A DNA stretch of 64,000 bases from Candidatus Sulfopaludibacter sp. SbA3 (GTDB lineage Bacteria; Acidobacteriota; Vicinamibacteria; Vicinamibacterales; UBA2999). Shown here in pieces: positions 18,740 through 43,776 of the stretch. Location: the NCBI GenBank assembly GCA_945903265.1, contig CAMDNQ010000018.1, positions 1-64,000 of the forward strand, in the 5' to 3' direction. The notes beneath the pieces are model-generated. The model was not told the origin of the DNA. It did no database searches and worked only from the letters and a program-made list of their open reading frames with translations. The position numbers and the translations under genes were made by a program. Position 1 is the first letter of the stretch. Each line of letters starts with the position of its first letter.

Positions 18740-18777
18740 GCTTCCTGTTCTCCGCAGAAAGGCAGCCGCTTTCACCC

Positions 18778-18940
18778 TGGGCAGGTCTCCTGGCTCGGAA
18801 GGGGCAGCGTGTTATCTGCTGCCGGCTGCTTCACCTTCCCCAGCCTGAGAGGCTGAGTGGTTGATCGAAGCAGCGGCCTTCACTCACAGTGGCGGAACCG
18901 CGCCGGACTTGCACCGGACTTCCCTGTTAGGCCCGTTGTA
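18778..18940 (-). promoter_or_regulatory. Cobalamin riboswitch
   Basis: Read on the minus strand, the segment has the conserved cobalamin-riboswitch blocks in order: a GGGAAGTCCGGTGCAAGTCC core, GCGCGGTTCCGCCACTGTGA, and the 3-prime B12 box AGCCAGGAGACCTGCC (18780-18795). It ends about 40 bases before the receptor start. Binding of coenzyme B12 normally closes the ribosome-binding site or triggers termination. It lies inside the cluster, after cbiB, so it should control the btuB-btuFDC-cobQ part but not cbiZ-cbiB. Confidence 0.92.
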
Positions 18941-18945
18941 GGCGC

Positions 18946-19938
18946 CTAGGGCAGCGAGGACGTTACCACGATCAGCGCGGCAGCCGCCAGCATCGCGGCC
19001 ACGATGCCCGTGATCACGACGAGCGTCAGCGCGGTGATCAGGTCCTCATGCGAGGCGGCCGGCGGGTCGGAGGGATCGCCGAGCCACGTGTCGGTGACGA
19101 GGCGCTGGTCAATCCGGATCGGTCCGACGAGGCGTCGCTGAATCGCGCCGGCCGTCGCCGCTTCGCTCCATCCGGAGTTCGGCCCCGGCAGCACGGCGTG
19201 CTGCTGGAGGCCGACGACCCACGCCTTTCGAGAGGATGTTCGCGGCACGACCAGCGCGACGGCCGCGATCAGCAGCCACGTCAGGCGCGCCGGCACGAAG
19301 TTCATGGCGTCGTCGAGGCGGGCGCCGCACCAGCCGAACTGAAGGTAGCGCGGGGTCTTGTACCCGACCATCGAGTCCATGGTGCTGACGACTTTGAAGA
19401 GCACGAGACCCGGCAGCCCGCCGACGACGTACCAGAACAGCGGACTCGTGAAGCCGTCGGTCAGGTTCTCGCTGAGGCTTTCGATCGCCGCGCGCCGGCA
19501 GGCGGCGGCGTCCATGGTGTCGGTATCGCGGCCGACAAGGTTCCGTATCTCGACGCGCGCTCCCGCGAGATCGTCACGTACGAGCGCCTGCTCGACGCGC
19601 CAGACATGACGAACCAGGTCACCCAGGGCCAGCAGGCTGTAAACGAGGAATGCGTGAAACGCCCAGCCAAGCCACGGCGTCAGACGCGCTCCGCGGTCAA
19701 CCAGCAGCGAAGAGACGGCAATCGACACGACCGACAACAGCAGGAAAAGCGCGATGCCGCCGCCGTAGCCGTCCAGGCCGAGGCGCCGGAGCCCGTCCTC
19801 GATCGCGGTCAGCGTCCGGCCGATGAGACGGATGGGATGCCAGCGATAGACGGGATCGCCGAGGGCGAGGTCGGCAAGAACGGCGCTCGCGAGAATCAGC
19901 GGATCGCCGGCGAGAAGCGAGCCTAGCTCGCTCGCCAC
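18946..19938 (-). CDS. cbiB: Adenosylcobinamide-phosphate synthase CbiB
   Basis: Integral membrane enzyme of 330 residues that attaches aminopropanol (phosphate) to adenosylcobyric acid. Recognised by the order of AVLADLALGDPVYRWHPIRLIG at the N-terminus, GRDTDTMDAAACRRAAIESLSENLTDGFTSPLFWY in the middle, and STMDSMVGYKTPRYLQFGWCGARLDDAMNFVPAR later. GTG 19938 is chosen because GGAG lies six bases upstream and the family N-terminus starts soon after. It overlaps the cbiZ gene by 16 bases, and the riboswitch follows it directly. Confidence 0.9.
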   Translation of the reverse strand: MASELGSLLAGDPLILASAVLADLALGDPVYRWHPIRLIGRTLTAIEDGLRRLGLDGYGGGIALFLLLSVVSIAVSSLLVDRGARLTPWLGWAFHAFLVYSLLALGDLVRHVWRVEQALVRDDLAGARVEIRNLVGRDTDTMDAAACRRAAIESLSENLTDGFTSPLFWYVVGGLPGLVLFKVVSTMDSMVGYKTPRYLQFGWCGARLDDAMNFVPARLTWLLIAAVALVVPRTSSRKAWVVGLQQHAVLPGPNSGWSEAATAGAIQRRLVGPIRIDQRLVTDTWLGDPSDPPAASHEDLITALTLVVITGIVAAMLAAAALIVVTSSLP

Positions 19939-38091: not shown

Positions 38092-40415
38092 AAGCGGAGC
38101 CGAAGCGTCAGGCCGAACGTCCGCGGCTCGCCGGGGAGACCGACGAAGAGACCGGAGTTGCCGGGCGCAGGCGAGAGCAGTTCAAAGTAGTCGCGGTTCA
38201 GCAGGTTGCGCGACCAGATCGAGACCGCCCATCCGTCCGACCAGCGGAAGCCGGCCCTCGCGTTGACGAGCGAGTAGCCGTCGATCACCAGGTACCGTGA
38301 CGCGCTGGAACTGGAGGAGAACGATGAACGCGCGCTCGCGTCGACGGCGCCAAAGAGCTCACCCGCCCTCCCCCACACGGTCCGCGGCCTGGCATATTCG
38401 CCGCCGAAGGACGCTGCCCACCGCGAAATCCCGGGCAACACCGAGCCCGATACGTCCTTGGTGAGCGGCCCGCCGGTCTCTTCGAGCGGGGGCGGCGCAT
38501 CGGGGAACGAGACGTACGTGCCATCCGTCAGTGCGGCGGATCCGTACAGCGACGTCCGGCGATTCACGCGGGCCGTGCCGTCAAACTCGAGGCCGCGCAC
38601 GCGCACCCGATCCGCATTCGCCAGATAGCCGCGCAGCACACCAACCTGCGCATTGACGACGTTCGCCTGGTAATCGCGCACGTCGGTCCTGAACGCCGTC
38701 ACATTGGCGGTCACGCCGGGGATCGGCTCCGTCTTGACGCCGACCTCCGCGTGGCGCACCGCCTCCGGCTTCACCGTCGCGGCATCAATCAGCGGGTGTC
38801 CCCCGGCGTCCGCGGGAACCCCCGACAGATTGAGCCCCACCGACTTGAAGCTCGTGGCGTAGGTGGCAAACGCGTGCACCCGTCGCGCGACGTCATAGGC
38901 GGCGGTCAGCTGCCCTGACAGGTTCCTGTCGTCCGCGCCCGCCTGGTACGACTGCGGCGCCAGGATAGACCGCTGCGCGGCCACGAGGGCCGGGTCGGTT
39001 GTCTGGAGGCCGCCGTACACCTGCGTGTCGAAATCGACTTCCTTGTCGTCGTAATTGACGCGGAGCCCCGGGAGCAGCCGAAAGCGATCGCCGACGGTCC
39101 ATTCGAGCTGGCCGAACGCCGCGGCGCTGTCGGTTACCGAAGAGATCTCCGACACCTGCCCGTAGCCGTCGAGCAGCCCCGGCGCCGACGCGGCTGCGCC
39201 TGGCGCCAGAAGAAACCGCGCCGCGGCGGCGCCCTGTTCCTGCCGGCCGGTGGAGTCGATCGTCTGATGAAATCCGAAGGCGCCCACGACGAACGCGATG
39301 CCGGGCGAGAGTGCTCCCGCATAGCGGACTTCCTGCGTCCATTGCCGCTGATCGGACGGGTTCGCCGAGATCGTCGTCACCGGCAGGCCGATGAAGTCGC
39401 GATCGTTCGACGGGCGCCAGTCCCAGTAGCGCCACGCGGTCGCCGACGTCAGCCGCCGGCTCCCGATCGCACGCTCGACGGTCACCGACGCTCCGCCGAG
39501 ATCCTGATGGGATCGCCAGGGCGTATCGGTGTCGGTGAGGCGATCGAAGGCATTGAACGTCGGCGGTGTGTAGCCGAGATCGGCGGCAATCCGCGCGTAC
39601 TGACGGTCGGCCGGCCGCAGGGTCGGCGCGACGCCCGCCACGACCTGGGCGTGCCCGTCGGGGCGCTGGCGGGTGTGATCGCCCGCGACGGTGATGACGA
39701 GCCTGTCGGACGGCGCCATCAGAAGCTGTCCCCTGACGCCCAGGTTGTTCAGCCCGTTGAGATCGAGTCCCGTGATGCTGTTGCGGATGGTGCCCTGCCT
39801 GGTCGTACCCGAAAACGACAGCCGCCCGGCGGCCCGCCGTGAGACCGGCCAGGAGAGCGACCCTTTCGCCTGCATCAGGCCCACGCTGCCGAACGTGATT
39901 TCGAAGTCCCCTTCGCGCGTGAAGGATGGCCTGCGCGTGGCGACACTGATCGCGCCCGCCGTCGTGTTCTTGCCGAAGAGCGTCCCCTGTGGTCCTCGCA
40001 GCACTTCGACGCGCTCGACGTCGACGAAATCGAGTGTGGCCGCCGCCGGCCGCGCGTGGAAGACGCCATCGACGTACAGGCCCACGCCGGGCTCGATGCC
40101 GTCGTTCGTCAGGCCGAACGGCGCACCCAGGCCGCGAACGGTGATGGACGAATTGCGAGGGTTGGAGGAGTAGAACTGCACCGTCGGAATGAGCTCCTTC
40201 AACCGGTTCACGTTGAAGGCGCCGGTGCTGGCGAGCAGCTCGCCGGTGACGACCGACACCGGAATCGGAACGGCCTGCGCGGCATCGACGGGCGAAGGGG
40301 CACTGACCACCACCGTCTCCTCGATCGGCGGCGGCTCCTCGGCCGTGTTCTGCGCAACCGCAAGCACCGGAACCAGCGCGATCGCGGACACAAACATAGA
40401 GATCGTCTTGAACAT
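38088..40415 (-). CDS. TonB-dependent outer-membrane receptor, sulfur-linked by context
   Basis: Receptor of 775 residues: signal peptide (1-21), plug beginning PIEETVVVSAPSPVDAAQAVPIPVSVVTGE with VRGLGAPFGLTNDGIEPGVGLYVDGVF and EVLRGPQGTLFGKNTTAGAISVATRRP, then a barrel ending RTFGLTLRLRL. It is of the type lacking the extra N-terminal domain. Upstream is a cysteine-rich leader whose 5-prime end can pair with the receptor's ribosome-binding site, so cysteine supply probably controls it. I suggest that it imports a sulfur compound; the substrate is unknown. A TauE-like permease follows in the operon. Confidence 0.86.
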   Translation of the reverse strand: MFKTISMFVSAIALVPVLAVAQNTAEEPPPIEETVVVSAPSPVDAAQAVPIPVSVVTGELLASTGAFNVNRLKELIPTVQFYSSNPRNSSITVRGLGAPFGLTNDGIEPGVGLYVDGVFHARPAAATLDFVDVERVEVLRGPQGTLFGKNTTAGAISVATRRPSFTREGDFEITFGSVGLMQAKGSLSWPVSRRAAGRLSFSGTTRQGTIRNSITGLDLNGLNNLGVRGQLLMAPSDRLVITVAGDHTRQRPDGHAQVVAGVAPTLRPADRQYARIAADLGYTPPTFNAFDRLTDTDTPWRSHQDLGGASVTVERAIGSRRLTSATAWRYWDWRPSNDRDFIGLPVTTISANPSDQRQWTQEVRYAGALSPGIAFVVGAFGFHQTIDSTGRQEQGAAAARFLLAPGAAASAPGLLDGYGQVSEISSVTDSAAAFGQLEWTVGDRFRLLPGLRVNYDDKEVDFDTQVYGGLQTTDPALVAAQRSILAPQSYQAGADDRNLSGQLTAAYDVARRVHAFATYATSFKSVGLNLSGVPADAGGHPLIDAATVKPEAVRHAEVGVKTEPIPGVTANVTAFRTDVRDYQANVVNAQVGVLRGYLANADRVRVRGLEFDGTARVNRRTSLYGSAALTDGTYVSFPDAPPPLEETGGPLTKDVSGSVLPGISRWAASFGGEYARPRTVWGRAGELFGAVDASARSSFSSSSSASRYLVIDGYSLVNARAGFRWSDGWAVSIWSRNLLNRDYFELLSPAPGNSGLFVGLPGEPRTFGLTLRLRL

Positions 40416-40416
40416 C

Positions 40417-40429
40417 GCCTCTCACCTCT
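40417..40429 (-). promoter_or_regulatory. Ribosome-binding region of the TonB receptor, target of anti-SD
   Basis: On the minus strand AGAGGTGAGAGGC lies directly before the receptor ATG (40415). It is fully complementary to GCCTCT plus CACCTCT in the leader (40628-40612), with a four-base CGGT bulge. Pairing would hide the Shine-Dalgarno. Confidence 0.5.
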
Positions 40430-40540
40430 GACGCCGGAGTGGGCGTCGCACAGTCAGTCAGGACACAGAGCCGCAGCGGCAGCCGACTGGCCGGTGTGAA
40501 GAGACGCGAACTGAAGGGAATTACTGGTTCAGAAGGACGC

Positions 40541-40630
40541 TCACCTCACCGCCATCGGCCCGATACACGCGCAGCGACACAGCGCCGCCGCGCAGCAGGG
40601 ACAACAACAGGAGAGGTGACCGAGAGGCAT
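40541..40630 (-). CDS. Cysteine-rich leader peptide upstream of the TonB receptor
   Basis: A 29-codon frame with 8 Cys codons: MPLGHLSCCCPCCAAALCRCACIG, then a short tail and TGA. It lies 125 bases upstream of the receptor gene on the same strand and is too short to be an enzyme. The predicted transcription start is about five bases before the ATG, so it may be translated nearly leaderless. The first seven codons contain the anti-Shine-Dalgarno. A ribosome stalled on the Cys codons when cysteine is short would cover that segment and free the receptor's start site. Codon content and position are observed; the mechanism is inferred. Confidence 0.65.
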   Translation of the reverse strand: MPLGHLSCCCPCCAAALCRCACIGPMAVR

Positions 40631-40641
40631 GAGATGTGACG

Positions 40642-40671
40642 GTTGTAGCGTTGACGGCAATCGCATGTCAA
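40642..40671 (-). promoter_or_regulatory. Candidate promoter of the TonB receptor operon
   Basis: On the minus strand: TTGACA (40671-40666), 18-base spacer, TACAAC (40647-40642). Start near 40635. It interleaves with the plus-strand promoter. Confidence 0.45.
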
Positions 40672-40680
40672 GCATAAGAT
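40651..40680 (+). promoter_or_regulatory. Candidate promoter of cysDNH
   Basis: TTGACG (40651-40656), 18-base spacer, TAAGAT (40675-40680). Start near 40687, about 19 bases before the leader ATG. Both promoter -35 elements form TTGAC-N11-GTCAA, a palindrome suited to a shared regulator. Confidence 0.45.
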
Positions 40681-40705
40681 CCCCATCAACGTGTTCACCG
40701 GCCTG

Positions 40706-40774
40706 ATGTGCGCCTGCTGTTGTTGTTGTCCGGAGACCTCCCGAGGTCTCGGCGCTCGACGTCTGGCCGCCTGA
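40706..40774 (+). CDS. Polycysteine leader peptide of cysDNH
   Basis: A 22-codon frame beginning MCACCCCCPETSRG with six Cys codons, five of them consecutive (40715-40729), ending at TGA 40772. It precedes a perfect attenuator-type terminator and then cysD. No clear Shine-Dalgarno is seen; translation may be near-leaderless from the predicted start at 40687. Polycysteine leaders that sense cysteine through ribosome stalling are known before sulfur genes in mycobacteria; here the layout with alternative hairpins is of the trp/his attenuator type. See the attenuator entry. Confidence 0.78.
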   Translation: MCACCCCCPETSRGLGARRLAA

Positions 40775-40859
40775 AGGCGCACAACACGACTTCATAAGCA
40801 GCAGCAAATCAGACATTCACGAGCCCGGGACCGAAAGGTTCCCGGGCTTTTTTGTTTTT
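40733..40859 (+). terminator. Transcription attenuator before cysD
   Basis: Three mutually exclusive hairpins. Protector: GAGACCT (40733-40739) with AGGTCTC (40744-40750). Anti-terminator: GGTCTCGGCGCTC (40745-40757) pairs over 12 bases (one G-T pair, one bulged C) with GAGCCCGGGACC (40821-40832). Terminator: that same segment pairs with GGTTCCCGGGCT (40837-40848) over 11 bp with one bulge and a GAAA loop, followed by T6-G-T5. A ribosome stalled at the Cys codons (40715-40729) would cover the left protector arm and leave 40745-40757 free to pair, giving read-through. cysD starts 16 bases later. Confidence 0.8.
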
Positions 40860-40874
40860 CGGCTCTGAATACCG

Positions 40875-41825
40875 ATGGCCACTGTGCTCGATACCACCCA
40901 CGTTCCCGTCACCGCCGCGCCGGCGCTGCGCCTGGATCACCTGCGCACGCTCGAAGCCGAGAGCATTCACATCCTCCGGGAGGTGGTGGCGGAATTCGAG
41001 CGGCCGGTCATGCTCTATTCCGTCGGCAAGGATTCCTCCGTCATGCTGCGCCTGGCGCAGAAGGCGTTCTTCCCGGGCCCGATTCCGTTTCCGCTGCTGC
41101 ACGTCGATACGACCTACAAGTTCCGCGAAATGATCGCGTTCCGCGATGACATGGCGCGCTCGGTCGGCGCGCGGCTCATCGTGCACACGAACCAGGACGC
41201 GATTGCGGACGGGACGCAGCCGTTCGCGGTCGGCACGCAGCGGTGCTGCGGACTGCTCAAGACGAAGGCGCTGCTCGACGCGCTGCAGGCCGGCAATTTT
41301 GATGCAGCCCTCGGCGGCGCGCGGCGCGACGAGGAACGATCGCGCGCCAAGGAGCGCGTCTTCTCGATCCGCGACGCCAGCGGCCAGTGGGACCCTAAGC
41401 GCCAGCGTCCCGAGCTCTGGCACCTGCTCAACGCCAGGCTGCGGCCCGGCGAGTCGATTCGCGTCTTCCCCCTCTCCAACTGGACCGAGATCGACATCTG
41501 GCAATACATCCACGTTGAACAGATCCCCATTGTCCCGCTGTATCTCGCGAAGGAGCGCGAGGTCATCGTCCGCGGCTCGTCGCTGATCGTCCCGGAACAG
41601 TCGTTCGTACCCGTGCTGCCGGGAGACAAGGTGGAAACCCTCCGCTGCCGGATGCGCTCGCTTGGCTGCTCGCCGTGCACGGGCGCGATTCGCTCCGATG
41701 CCGATACGGTGCCGAAGATCATCGAAGAGCTGATCGCCGTCCGCCAGTCCGAGCGCCAGCTGCGCATCATCGATCACGATCAGGACGCGTCGATGGAGAT
41801 GAAGAAGCGCGAGGGCTACTTCTGA
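40875..41825 (+). CDS. cysD: Sulfate adenylyltransferase subunit 2
   Basis: Subunit of ATP sulfurylase, 316 residues, making adenylylsulfate from sulfate and ATP. It has the PP-loop [15 protein letters not shown] (near residue 50), [37 protein letters not shown] and the C-terminal [17 protein letters not shown]. All are typical CysD features at normal length. ATG 40875 lies just after the attenuator terminator; the stop overlaps cysN (TGATG). Expression likely rises when cysteine is short. Confidence 0.95.
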
Positions 41826-43135
41826 TGTCCGGACTGCTCCGCATCTGCACGGCCGGGAGCGTGGACGATGGGAAGAGCACGCTGATCGGACGGATGCTGC
41901 ACGACGCGCAGGCGGTGTACGAGGACCAGGTGACGTCCGTGCGCGCCGCGTCGAAGAACCGCGGCGCCGGGCCGATTGACTTCTCGCTGTTCACCGACGG
42001 CCTCAAGGCCGAGCGCGAACAGGGCATCACCATCGACGTGGCCTATCGCTACTTCGCGACCGCGAAGCGCAAGTTCATCCTCGCGGATACGCCCGGTCAC
42101 GAGCAGTACACCCGCAACATGGCCACCGGCGCATCAACCGCCGACCTCGCGATCCTGCTGGTCGATGCCTCCCAGGGGGTGAAACCGCAGTCGAGGCGGC
42201 ACGCCCGGATCGCGCAACTGCTCGGGATCACCGACTTCGTCGTCGCGATCAACAAGATGGACCTCGTGGCGTTCAACCGCGACGTCTACGAGCGGATCCG
42301 CGACGAGTTCCTGGACATCCTCGGCGGCGCGCGCTGCCACGCGATTCCGCTGAGCGCCCTCCAGGGCGACAACGTCATGGGGCCGAGTCCTAATACCCCG
42401 TGGTTCGAGGGACCCGGACTGCTCGAGCATCTCGAGACCGTTGACGTCGCGCACGACCTGACGGCACAGCCGTTCCGGTTTCCGGTGCAGCTCGTCATGC
42501 GTCCCGATCACCAGTTCCGCGGCTATGCCGGCCAGATCGTCACGGGCATCGTCCGCGTCGGCGACCTCGTCACCGCGTGGCCCTCGGGCCGGAGCGCGCA
42601 CGTCAAGCGGATTGTCACGCACGATGGCGATCTCGACATGGCGTTCGCGCCGATGTCGGTCGCCATCACGCTCGACGAGGAGATCGACATCAGCCGCGGC
42701 GATCAGCTGTCCGGCGCCTCCAGTCCCCCGCACGTGGGCAACCGGTTCCAGGCGGAAATCGTCTGGATGGACGAGCGGCCGGCCCAGCCCGGACGGGTGT
42801 ATCTGCTGAAGCACACGACGCGCACGGTCGCTGCGGAAGTCGACCGGACGCTCGCGTTGAATCAAATCGGGACCGCCACCGTCGCCGTGACGCATCCGCT
42901 GGTCTTCGACCGCTACGAGAACAACCGCGCGACCGGCAGCTTCGTGCTGATCGACCCGGCAACCTGCTTCACGGCTGGCGCGGGCATGATCGCCGGGCTC
43001 GGCGAGAGCGACCGCACGCAGCCGAACAGTCCGATCAGCGCCGCCGCGCGGCTCGCGCACCTGGCACGGGGCGCCTCATCGGATGCGGAAGCGATTGAGG
43101 CCGTGGAACGCGCGCTCGAGGAGATGCTGACATGA
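41825..43135 (+). CDS. cysN: Sulfate adenylyltransferase subunit 1 (GTPase)
   Basis: EF-Tu-like GTPase of 436 residues that drives sulfate adenylylation with GTP. Motifs: G1 AGSVDDGKSTLIGRML, G2 region GITIDVAYRYF, G3 DTPGHEQYTRNM, G4 NKMD, then beta-barrel domains II and III. It lacks the C-terminal APS-kinase domain of fused CysNC, matching an APS-reductase pathway that needs no PAPS. It overlaps cysD by one base and cysH by four. Confidence 0.94.
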   Translation: MSGLLRICTAGSVDDGKSTLIGRMLHDAQAVYEDQVTSVRAASKNRGAGPIDFSLFTDGLKAEREQGITIDVAYRYFATAKRKFILADTPGHEQYTRNMATGASTADLAILLVDASQGVKPQSRRHARIAQLLGITDFVVAINKMDLVAFNRDVYERIRDEFLDILGGARCHAIPLSALQGDNVMGPSPNTPWFEGPGLLEHLETVDVAHDLTAQPFRFPVQLVMRPDHQFRGYAGQIVTGIVRVGDLVTAWPSGRSAHVKRIVTHDGDLDMAFAPMSVAITLDEEIDISRGDQLSGASSPPHVGNRFQAEIVWMDERPAQPGRVYLLKHTTRTVAAEVDRTLALNQIGTATVAVTHPLVFDRYENNRATGSFVLIDPATCFTAGAGMIAGLGESDRTQPNSPISAAARLAHLARGASSDAEAIEAVERALEEMLT

Positions 43136-43776
43136 GCGGATTGTCCCCTGCGATCATCGAGACGCTGCGAAAGGCGCATGCGCCCTGCCTGACCTCCAGT
43201 TTTCAGGCGGAATGCGTCGTCCTCACGCACATGCTGATCGCGCGGATGCCGGGCATTCCGATCCTGTTTCTCGATACCGCGCACCACTTCGCCGAGACGC
43301 TCGCCTACCGCGACGAACTGGCGGCGAGATGGAAGCTCAATCTGGTGACCTTGCGCGCGAGCGAGCCGCTCGTCGGACTCTGGGAAGCGGAGAGCACCGA
43401 GGCGTGCTGCAAGCGGCACAAAGTGGAGCCGCTCTTCTCGGCGCTCGAACGGTATGACGTCTGGTTTACCGCGCTAAGACGCGATCAGTCGCCGTCACGC
43501 GCGGCGCTGCAGGAGATTGAGCCGTTCAGCCTGCCGACCGGAAAGACCATCCAGCGCGTAAGCCCGCTGGCGGCCTGGACGGCGAAGGATGTGTGGGACT
43601 ACGCGCGGACGCACGACATTCCCCTGCTGCCGCTCTACGACCGCGGCTTCACCAGCATCGGGTGCGAGCCGTGCACGACGCTGCCAGTCGATCCGTCGAA
43701 CCCGCGGTCCGGCCGCTGGCAGGGTCAGAAGCTGGAGTGCGGCATCCACGTCCAGACCAAACCCCACGCCAATTAA
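43132..43776 (+). CDS. cysH: Adenylylsulfate (APS) reductase, Fe-S type
   Basis: Enzyme of 214 residues reducing APS to sulfite. The four Fe-S cysteines Cys92-Cys93 (ACCKRHK) and Cys178/Cys181 (GCEPC) are present, and the catalytic Cys203 lies in ECGIH. This CC...CxxC set marks the assimilatory APS reductase rather than the E. coli-type PAPS reductase, consistent with no APS kinase in the operon. The stop lies inside a palindromic terminator. Confidence 0.93.
   Translation: MSGLSPAIIETLRKAHAPCLTSSFQAECVVLTHMLIARMPGIPILFLDTAHHFAETLAYRDELAARWKLNLVTLRASEPLVGLWEAESTEACCKRHKVEPLFSALERYDVWFTALRRDQSPSRAALQEIEPFSLPTGKTIQRVSPLAAWTAKDVWDYARTHDIPLLPLYDRGFTSIGCEPCTTLPVDPSNPRSGRWQGQKLECGIHVQTKPHAN

Follow-up and report, generated by a model that had tools for sequence, protein, structure and literature searches.

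The window, by which we mean the whole 64-kb stretch of DNA analysed, contains a cysDNH operon that is preceded by a Cys-rich leader frame, several RNA segments capable of alternative pairing, and an intrinsic terminator (Table 1). Upstream of the Cys-rich frame, a TTGACG-18 nt-TAAGAT promoter motif was found once where 0.1 are expected. The five control codons form the only run of at least five TGY codons in the window (mean in shuffled windows 0.00), and a sixth Cys codon of the leader ORF is located at 40709-40711. The attenuator region folds more stably than its shuffles (z = -4.29), and the arms of the GC-rich terminator, 40822-40830 and 40840-40848, are 100% complementary and are followed by a T run which ends 21 nt upstream of the cysD start. 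No credible Rfam match above the gathering score was found at 40400-40900. The sole Rfam match in the window is a cobalamin riboswitch (RF00174, 92.5 bits, 18763-18964, minus strand), and a search of the genome for the SAM riboswitch RF00162 found none.

Table 1. Positions of the promoter, leader, RNA elements and genes at the cysDNH locus in the window
Feature	Position	Strand	Evidence
Predicted sigma-70 promoter: TTGACG 40651-40656, 18 nt, TAAGAT 40675-40680	40651..40680	+	motif match
Whole attenuator	40691..40853	+	covariance models R1/R2
Leader ORF, GTG start, 27 codons + TGA, VFTGLMCACCCCCPETSRGLGARRLAA, probably leaderless	40691..40774	+	homologue alignment, -10 spacing
Control codons: five consecutive Cys codons	40715..40729	+	sequence; conserved spacing to protector arm
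Region 1, 5' arm of protector hairpin P1, GAGACCTC; outer part GCGCC 40710-40714	40733..40740	+	pairing; P1 covariation, 78 homologues
Region 2, P1 3' arm (40743-40750, outer GGCGC 40751-40755) and antiterminator 5' strand (40745-40757)	40743..40757	+	pairing, covariation, duplex energy, masked folding
Region 3, antiterminator 3' strand and terminator 5' arm	40820..40832	+	pairing, duplex energy, masked folding
Region 4, intrinsic terminator 3' arm (40837-40848) and U run (40848-40853)	40837..40853	+	sequence, pairing
cysD, sulfate adenylyltransferase small subunit, first gene controlled (predicted)	40875..41825	+	TIGR02039 E 4.1e-138
cysN, sulfate adenylyltransferase large subunit	41825..43135	+	TIGR02034 E 1.3e-157
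cysH, (phospho)adenylylsulfate reductase	43132..43776	+	NF002537 E 6.3e-60

The original prediction placed a 22-codon frame here, starting at ATG 40706. Positions 40706-40774 do read ATG TGC GCC TGC TGT TGT TGT TGT CCG GAG ... TGA, or MCACCCCCPETSRGLGARRLAA followed by the stop, and the five consecutive Cys codons stand; the ATG does not stand as the leader start, being internal to the frame according to homologue alignment and promoter spacing. The leader frame most likely starts at GTG 40691 and has 27 codons, because homologous frames begin there, 8-10 nt after the -10 box; in the window this GTG sits 10 nt past it. The same layout is seen in 16 cysD relatives drawn from the family and order, with frames that begin with GTG (or ATG), mostly 8-10 nt past the -10 box. 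Among 78 homologues, the codon at model position 1 is GTG in 49, ATG in 18 and TTG in 3. A promoter score of at least 9/12 within 60 nt before the frame was obtained for 32 of 77 homologues (null 0.6%), with a distance of 8-10 nt from -10 box to start codon in 24 of these 32, and only 9 of the 77 have a motif resembling a Shine-Dalgarno sequence. Since the gap is too short for a Shine-Dalgarno sequence and such motifs are few, the frame is probably leaderless, judging from the -10 spacing. The peptide tail (VPALSVRLG) was considered as the conserved object and ruled out, as the frame through the hairpin varies among relatives; the window copy retains the RNA with its tail out of frame. Because the leader tail lacks one fixed frame relative to the hairpin, it is the RNA, not the peptide tail, that is conserved.

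Directly after the Cys codons, GAGACCTC pairs with GAGGTCTC to form P1, a perfect hairpin of 8 bp. The antiterminator (40745-40757 with 40820-40832) has 13 pairs and one bulge, and its 3' strand also serves the terminator, so that the sharing of one arm by these two helices, as originally proposed, is borne out. The window copy has an extra helix in which the Cys-codon stretch 40714-40730 pairs with 40788-40804.

Homologues were searched with two covariance models, R1, made from 15 leaders, and R2, which includes the protector, inner antiterminator and terminator helices. The window attenuator matches R1 with E 2.3e-25 and R2, over its full length, with E 6.2e-23. Structure was tested on 78 homologous copies read in detail. 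The consensus has three parts: P1, which pairs the bases flanking the Cys codons (GCGC, GGACC with GGUCC, GCGC), a short helix of CGGUC with GAUCG inside the antiterminator, and the terminator. At 19 of 26 pairs both bases change with pairing preserved, compared to 12.0 in shuffles, and the covariation score is 0.250 against 0.155 +/- 0.005 when shuffled, a control that is inflated by kinship among the copies, and at most 0.089 when partners are slid. The protector and terminator helices covary, with 93.2% of terminator helix cells paired, and at least 5 T in 8 are present at the terminator in 74 of 78 copies. Depending on the copy, the outer antiterminator helix contains a bulge or a mismatch, and duplex energies were therefore used to assess it. 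Cognate duplexes of region 2 with the terminator arm have a mean of -20.6 kcal/mol versus -18.9 +/- 0.28 kcal/mol for swaps within families (z -6.1, p 0.0002); by family, f1, f5 and f15 are each significant and f8 alone is not (p 0.25). At least three consecutive Cys codons are present in 68 of 78 leader ORFs, and the distance from the end of the run's last Cys codon to the protector 5' arm is exactly 3 nt in 62 of 78 copies. Covariation, duplex energy and masked folding thus agree with the mutually exclusive protector, antiterminator and terminator helices of the original prediction.

The effect of ribosome position was computed by equilibrium folding of transcripts ending before region 4 with the ribosome footprint masked. 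In the window copy, sequestration of the terminator 5' arm is 0.005 with no ribosome, 0.990 with a ribosome stalled at the Cys codons and 0.004 once the ribosome has reached the stop codon; the corresponding means of the 78 copies are 0.53, 0.73 and 0.42 (stalled versus stop, Wilcoxon p 6e-11). P1 forms with a mean probability of 0.71 before region 3 is made; placing the ribosome on the last Cys codon abolishes it, as the mask itself dictates. The earlier suggestion that a ribosome stalled at the Cys codons would block the protector is supported by this switch in fold and by the 3-nt spacing. The folding check offered with it, masking of 40733-40742 alone, fails to free the antiterminator because the Cys-codon helix with 40788-40804 must open too; a mask of the whole ribosome footprint frees it. 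When the complete terminator is included the terminator wins at equilibrium even with a stalled ribosome, and therefore antitermination has to be a kinetic outcome, like that of trp. For some copies, among them L010 and the two found elsewhere in this genome (L101 and L102, below), the predicted prefix fold hardly shifts with ribosome position.

R1 matches 109 of 162 genomes of the order, and Cys enrichment among these matches is partly built in because the model includes the letters TGTTGTTGT. R2 has matches at E <= 0.01 in 145 of the 193 class genomes, and 111 have a best E <= 1e-6 among the matches listed. The downstream gene was chosen by codon score, as choosing the longest ORF gave spurious ORFs in GC-rich DNA. 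Genes directly downstream include cysD (with cysN and cysH), cysH, TauE/SafE permeases, cysteine synthase (cysK), YeiH, cysG-type sirohaem synthase with SUMT plus sulfite reductase, DUF2061 and a RimK-type ATP-grasp protein; judged by sequence, the genes predicted to be controlled are nearly always those of sulfur assimilation. Three clear copies are present in this genome: the window copy on contig C18, one before sirohaem synthase and sulfite reductase (C12:61198-61334, minus strand; L101 3899-4035, minus strand), and one before a YeiH-type transporter (C19:52341-52485, minus strand; L102 3842-3986, minus strand).

Related cysD genes without any Cys frame or terminator upstream would have spoken against the original prediction. 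Instead both recur, and the attenuator lies ahead of the operon in 19 of 20 genomes with a window-type cysD; in some of these 19 a permease or cysteine synthase gene comes first and the attenuator precedes that gene. It is absent at ten loci of a distant cysD paralogue (57-63% identity), including the second cysD of this genome, which is 60% identical and lies just past the window end (G000:C18:64725-65618). Among 79 named cysD loci, strong matches were limited to Acidobacteria MAGs with a window-type cysD and one MAG labelled Gemmatimonadetes. In the latter (L156 438-585) the attenuator precedes a permease-like gene upstream of cysD, and the contig is probably mislabelled or transferred. In an Acidobacteria MAG outside the group, a short frame with a run of three Cys codons, MARASQARRCCCLSNIFDGCMN, precedes cysD with no obvious terminator (L159, about 1263-1331).

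Outside the class, in a search to phylum rank, real-looking matches are few; they come from G321 and G503, both with Cys codons and cysH. In these Acidobacteriota beyond the class, leaders with clustered Cys codons and terminators precede cysH and sulfite reductase at L230 and L240 (G321) and L237 (G503). One phylum match, in G406 (E 4.1e-8), lacks a Cys frame and was rejected as a false positive; because of it low-scoring matches outside the class were not counted. Leaders with a Cys run also precede an NMT1-type ABC substrate-binding protein (L239 in G037 and L241 in G157; Pfam was run on the L239 protein), which possibly serves sulfonate uptake.

We consider it very probable that the cysDNH leader works by ribosome-mediated transcription attenuation in response to charged tRNA-Cys and belongs to an RNA family controlling the cysteine/sulfur regulon of this class of Acidobacteriota. 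The comparative evidence (class-wide architecture, covariation, arm matching, Cys spacing and the footprint switch) supports the trp-type attenuation first suggested for this locus. From these computed features we infer where transcription starts, that the ribosome stalls, that transcription terminates in cells and that cysteine is the signal, as follows. The transcript would begin at GTG 40691 or no more than a few bases from it, and the ribosome would load directly on its 5' end. With plentiful Cys-tRNA, the ribosome would clear the Cys codons and reach the stop codon at 40772, region 1 would pair with region 2 (P1), region 3 would be free for region 4, and RNA polymerase would stop at the U run before cysD. 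With scarce Cys-tRNA, the ribosome would stall within 40709-40729 and cover region 1 and the Cys-codon helix; newly made region 3 would be captured by region 2, which would keep the terminator from forming and let cysDNH be transcribed.

Most documented cases of leader-peptide attenuation come from Proteobacteria, Actinobacteria and some Firmicutes. The trp, his and leu attenuators of enterobacteria likewise have a leader ORF with control codons, a 1:2 protector, a 2:3 antiterminator and a 3:4 intrinsic terminator with shared arms, and a stop codon downstream of region 2. The Acidobacteriota family has the same kind of short ORF with repeated codons for the amino acid of its operon, a conserved Cys run whose translation is predicted; it differs in cysteine control, a probably leaderless GTG start and a sulfur regulon. 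The trpL leader ORF of the Sinorhizobium meliloti attenuator starts at the transcript 5' end (PMC7298713), but has Trp codons and an ATG start and belongs to the trp operon of an alphaproteobacterium. The uORFC-8-2 motif of Rhodobacterales cysS is a predicted Cys-codon uORF in which the first stem holds the Cys codons and a terminator with a U run follows (PMC8632094). Compared by description, it has two tandem Cys codons near codons 14-15 and a conserved AUG and occurs only before cysS of Alphaproteobacteria, whereas the present family has mostly GTG starts, longer runs and other genes downstream.

The original prediction rightly named polycysteine leaders as known in mycobacteria. The leaderless polycysteine sORFs there are described as acting by translation attenuation or possibly through Rho, according to passages citing Canestrari 2020 in PMC13236596 and PMC9094748. 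They resemble the present family in the Cys-codon runs, the leaderless start, the cys operons and a response to cysteine, which for the present family is predicted. The Acidobacteriota frames precede cysteine genes in the same way, with a transcription start placed by promoter spacing only. They differ in having a covarying intrinsic terminator, whereas no conserved terminator accompanies the mycobacterial leaders or the actinobacterial Cys leaders of PMC1262725. In Rfam and the open-access papers searched we found no description of a leaderless, terminator-based Cys attenuator family over an Acidobacteriota sulfur regulon, and the original prediction, too, was aware of no classical cysteine attenuator of such form in this phylum. 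Cys leaders themselves are already known; what sets the present family apart is the combination of a leaderless Cys frame with an intrinsic terminator, covering a regulon in Acidobacteriota. The original prediction had recognised the Cys frame and the attenuator architecture, and overlooked the GTG start and its probable leaderless translation, as well as the regulon and how widely the element occurs in the class.

The mycobacterial example raises the alternative of translational or Rho-dependent attenuation, in which stalling would uncover a ribosome-binding site or keep Rho from acting. The mycobacterial cys operons under leaderless polycysteine frames, and the actinobacterial Cys leaders without terminators, are precedents for it, but nearly all copies here have a strong intrinsic terminator with a T run, and the terminator helix covaries and has its 5' arm matched to the antiterminator; we regard this alternative as quite unlikely. 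A Cys-rich peptide might instead sense copper, zinc or oxidation as a nascent chain or binding peptide, with stalling that does not come from a shortage of tRNA-Cys. Such a role would suit the Cys-rich frames and the copies that precede redoxin-type proteins (G189, G192). It is nevertheless very improbable, given that the controlled genes are almost all for cysteine and sulfur assimilation, that the peptide tail shifts frame between relatives with the RNA kept, and that the Cys codons are positioned by the protector arm and not by the peptide end. As cysteine regulation here is a prediction, the terminator could also be constitutive, lying without regulation between a fortuitous short frame and cysD; conservation, covariation and recurrence across the regulon make this scarcely credible.

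A second Cys-rich frame runs divergently on the minus strand from ATG 40630 to TGA 40541 (MPLGHLSCCCPCCAAALCRCACIGPMAVR; window 40541-40630), with its own promoter TTGACA/TACAAC at about 40671-40642, 11 nt before the ATG, and is probably leaderless. It precedes a TonB-dependent receptor and a TauE/SafE permease, and its ending, CRCACIGPxxVR before the stop, recurs in this or a close form in L004, L005 and L007. No intrinsic terminator was seen at this frame. Its 5' TCACCTCTCC can pair with GGTGAGGTGA at the end of the frame or with the Shine-Dalgarno region of the receptor, and this pairing suggests translational control. One relative carries, at L012/L149 (minus strand, G005:C1:46025-46166), a further copy of the family that includes a terminator and belongs to the divergent gene (R2 E 6.2e-6). 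We propose, tentatively and as somewhat less than an even chance, that across the class sulfur assimilation is switched mainly by charged tRNA-Cys acting through leaderless uORFs, and that the cysD/TonB intergenic region has two divergent leaderless Cys uORFs that differ in output, one terminator-based (cysDNH) and one terminator-less and probably translational (TonB receptor and TauE permease).

With cysDNH read as controlled by a trp-type attenuator responding to charged tRNA-Cys, one RNA family is predicted to link sulfate activation, sulfate reduction, sirohaem synthesis and sulfite reductase, cysteine synthase and sulfur transporters into a single cysteine-controlled regulon in a poorly cultured group. 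The attenuator precedes most steps of cysteine synthesis across the class. It may serve as a regulon predictor for genes of unknown role, such as the RimK-type ATP-grasp enzyme, DUF2061 and YeiH, and would provide a test bed for attenuation with leaderless initiation.
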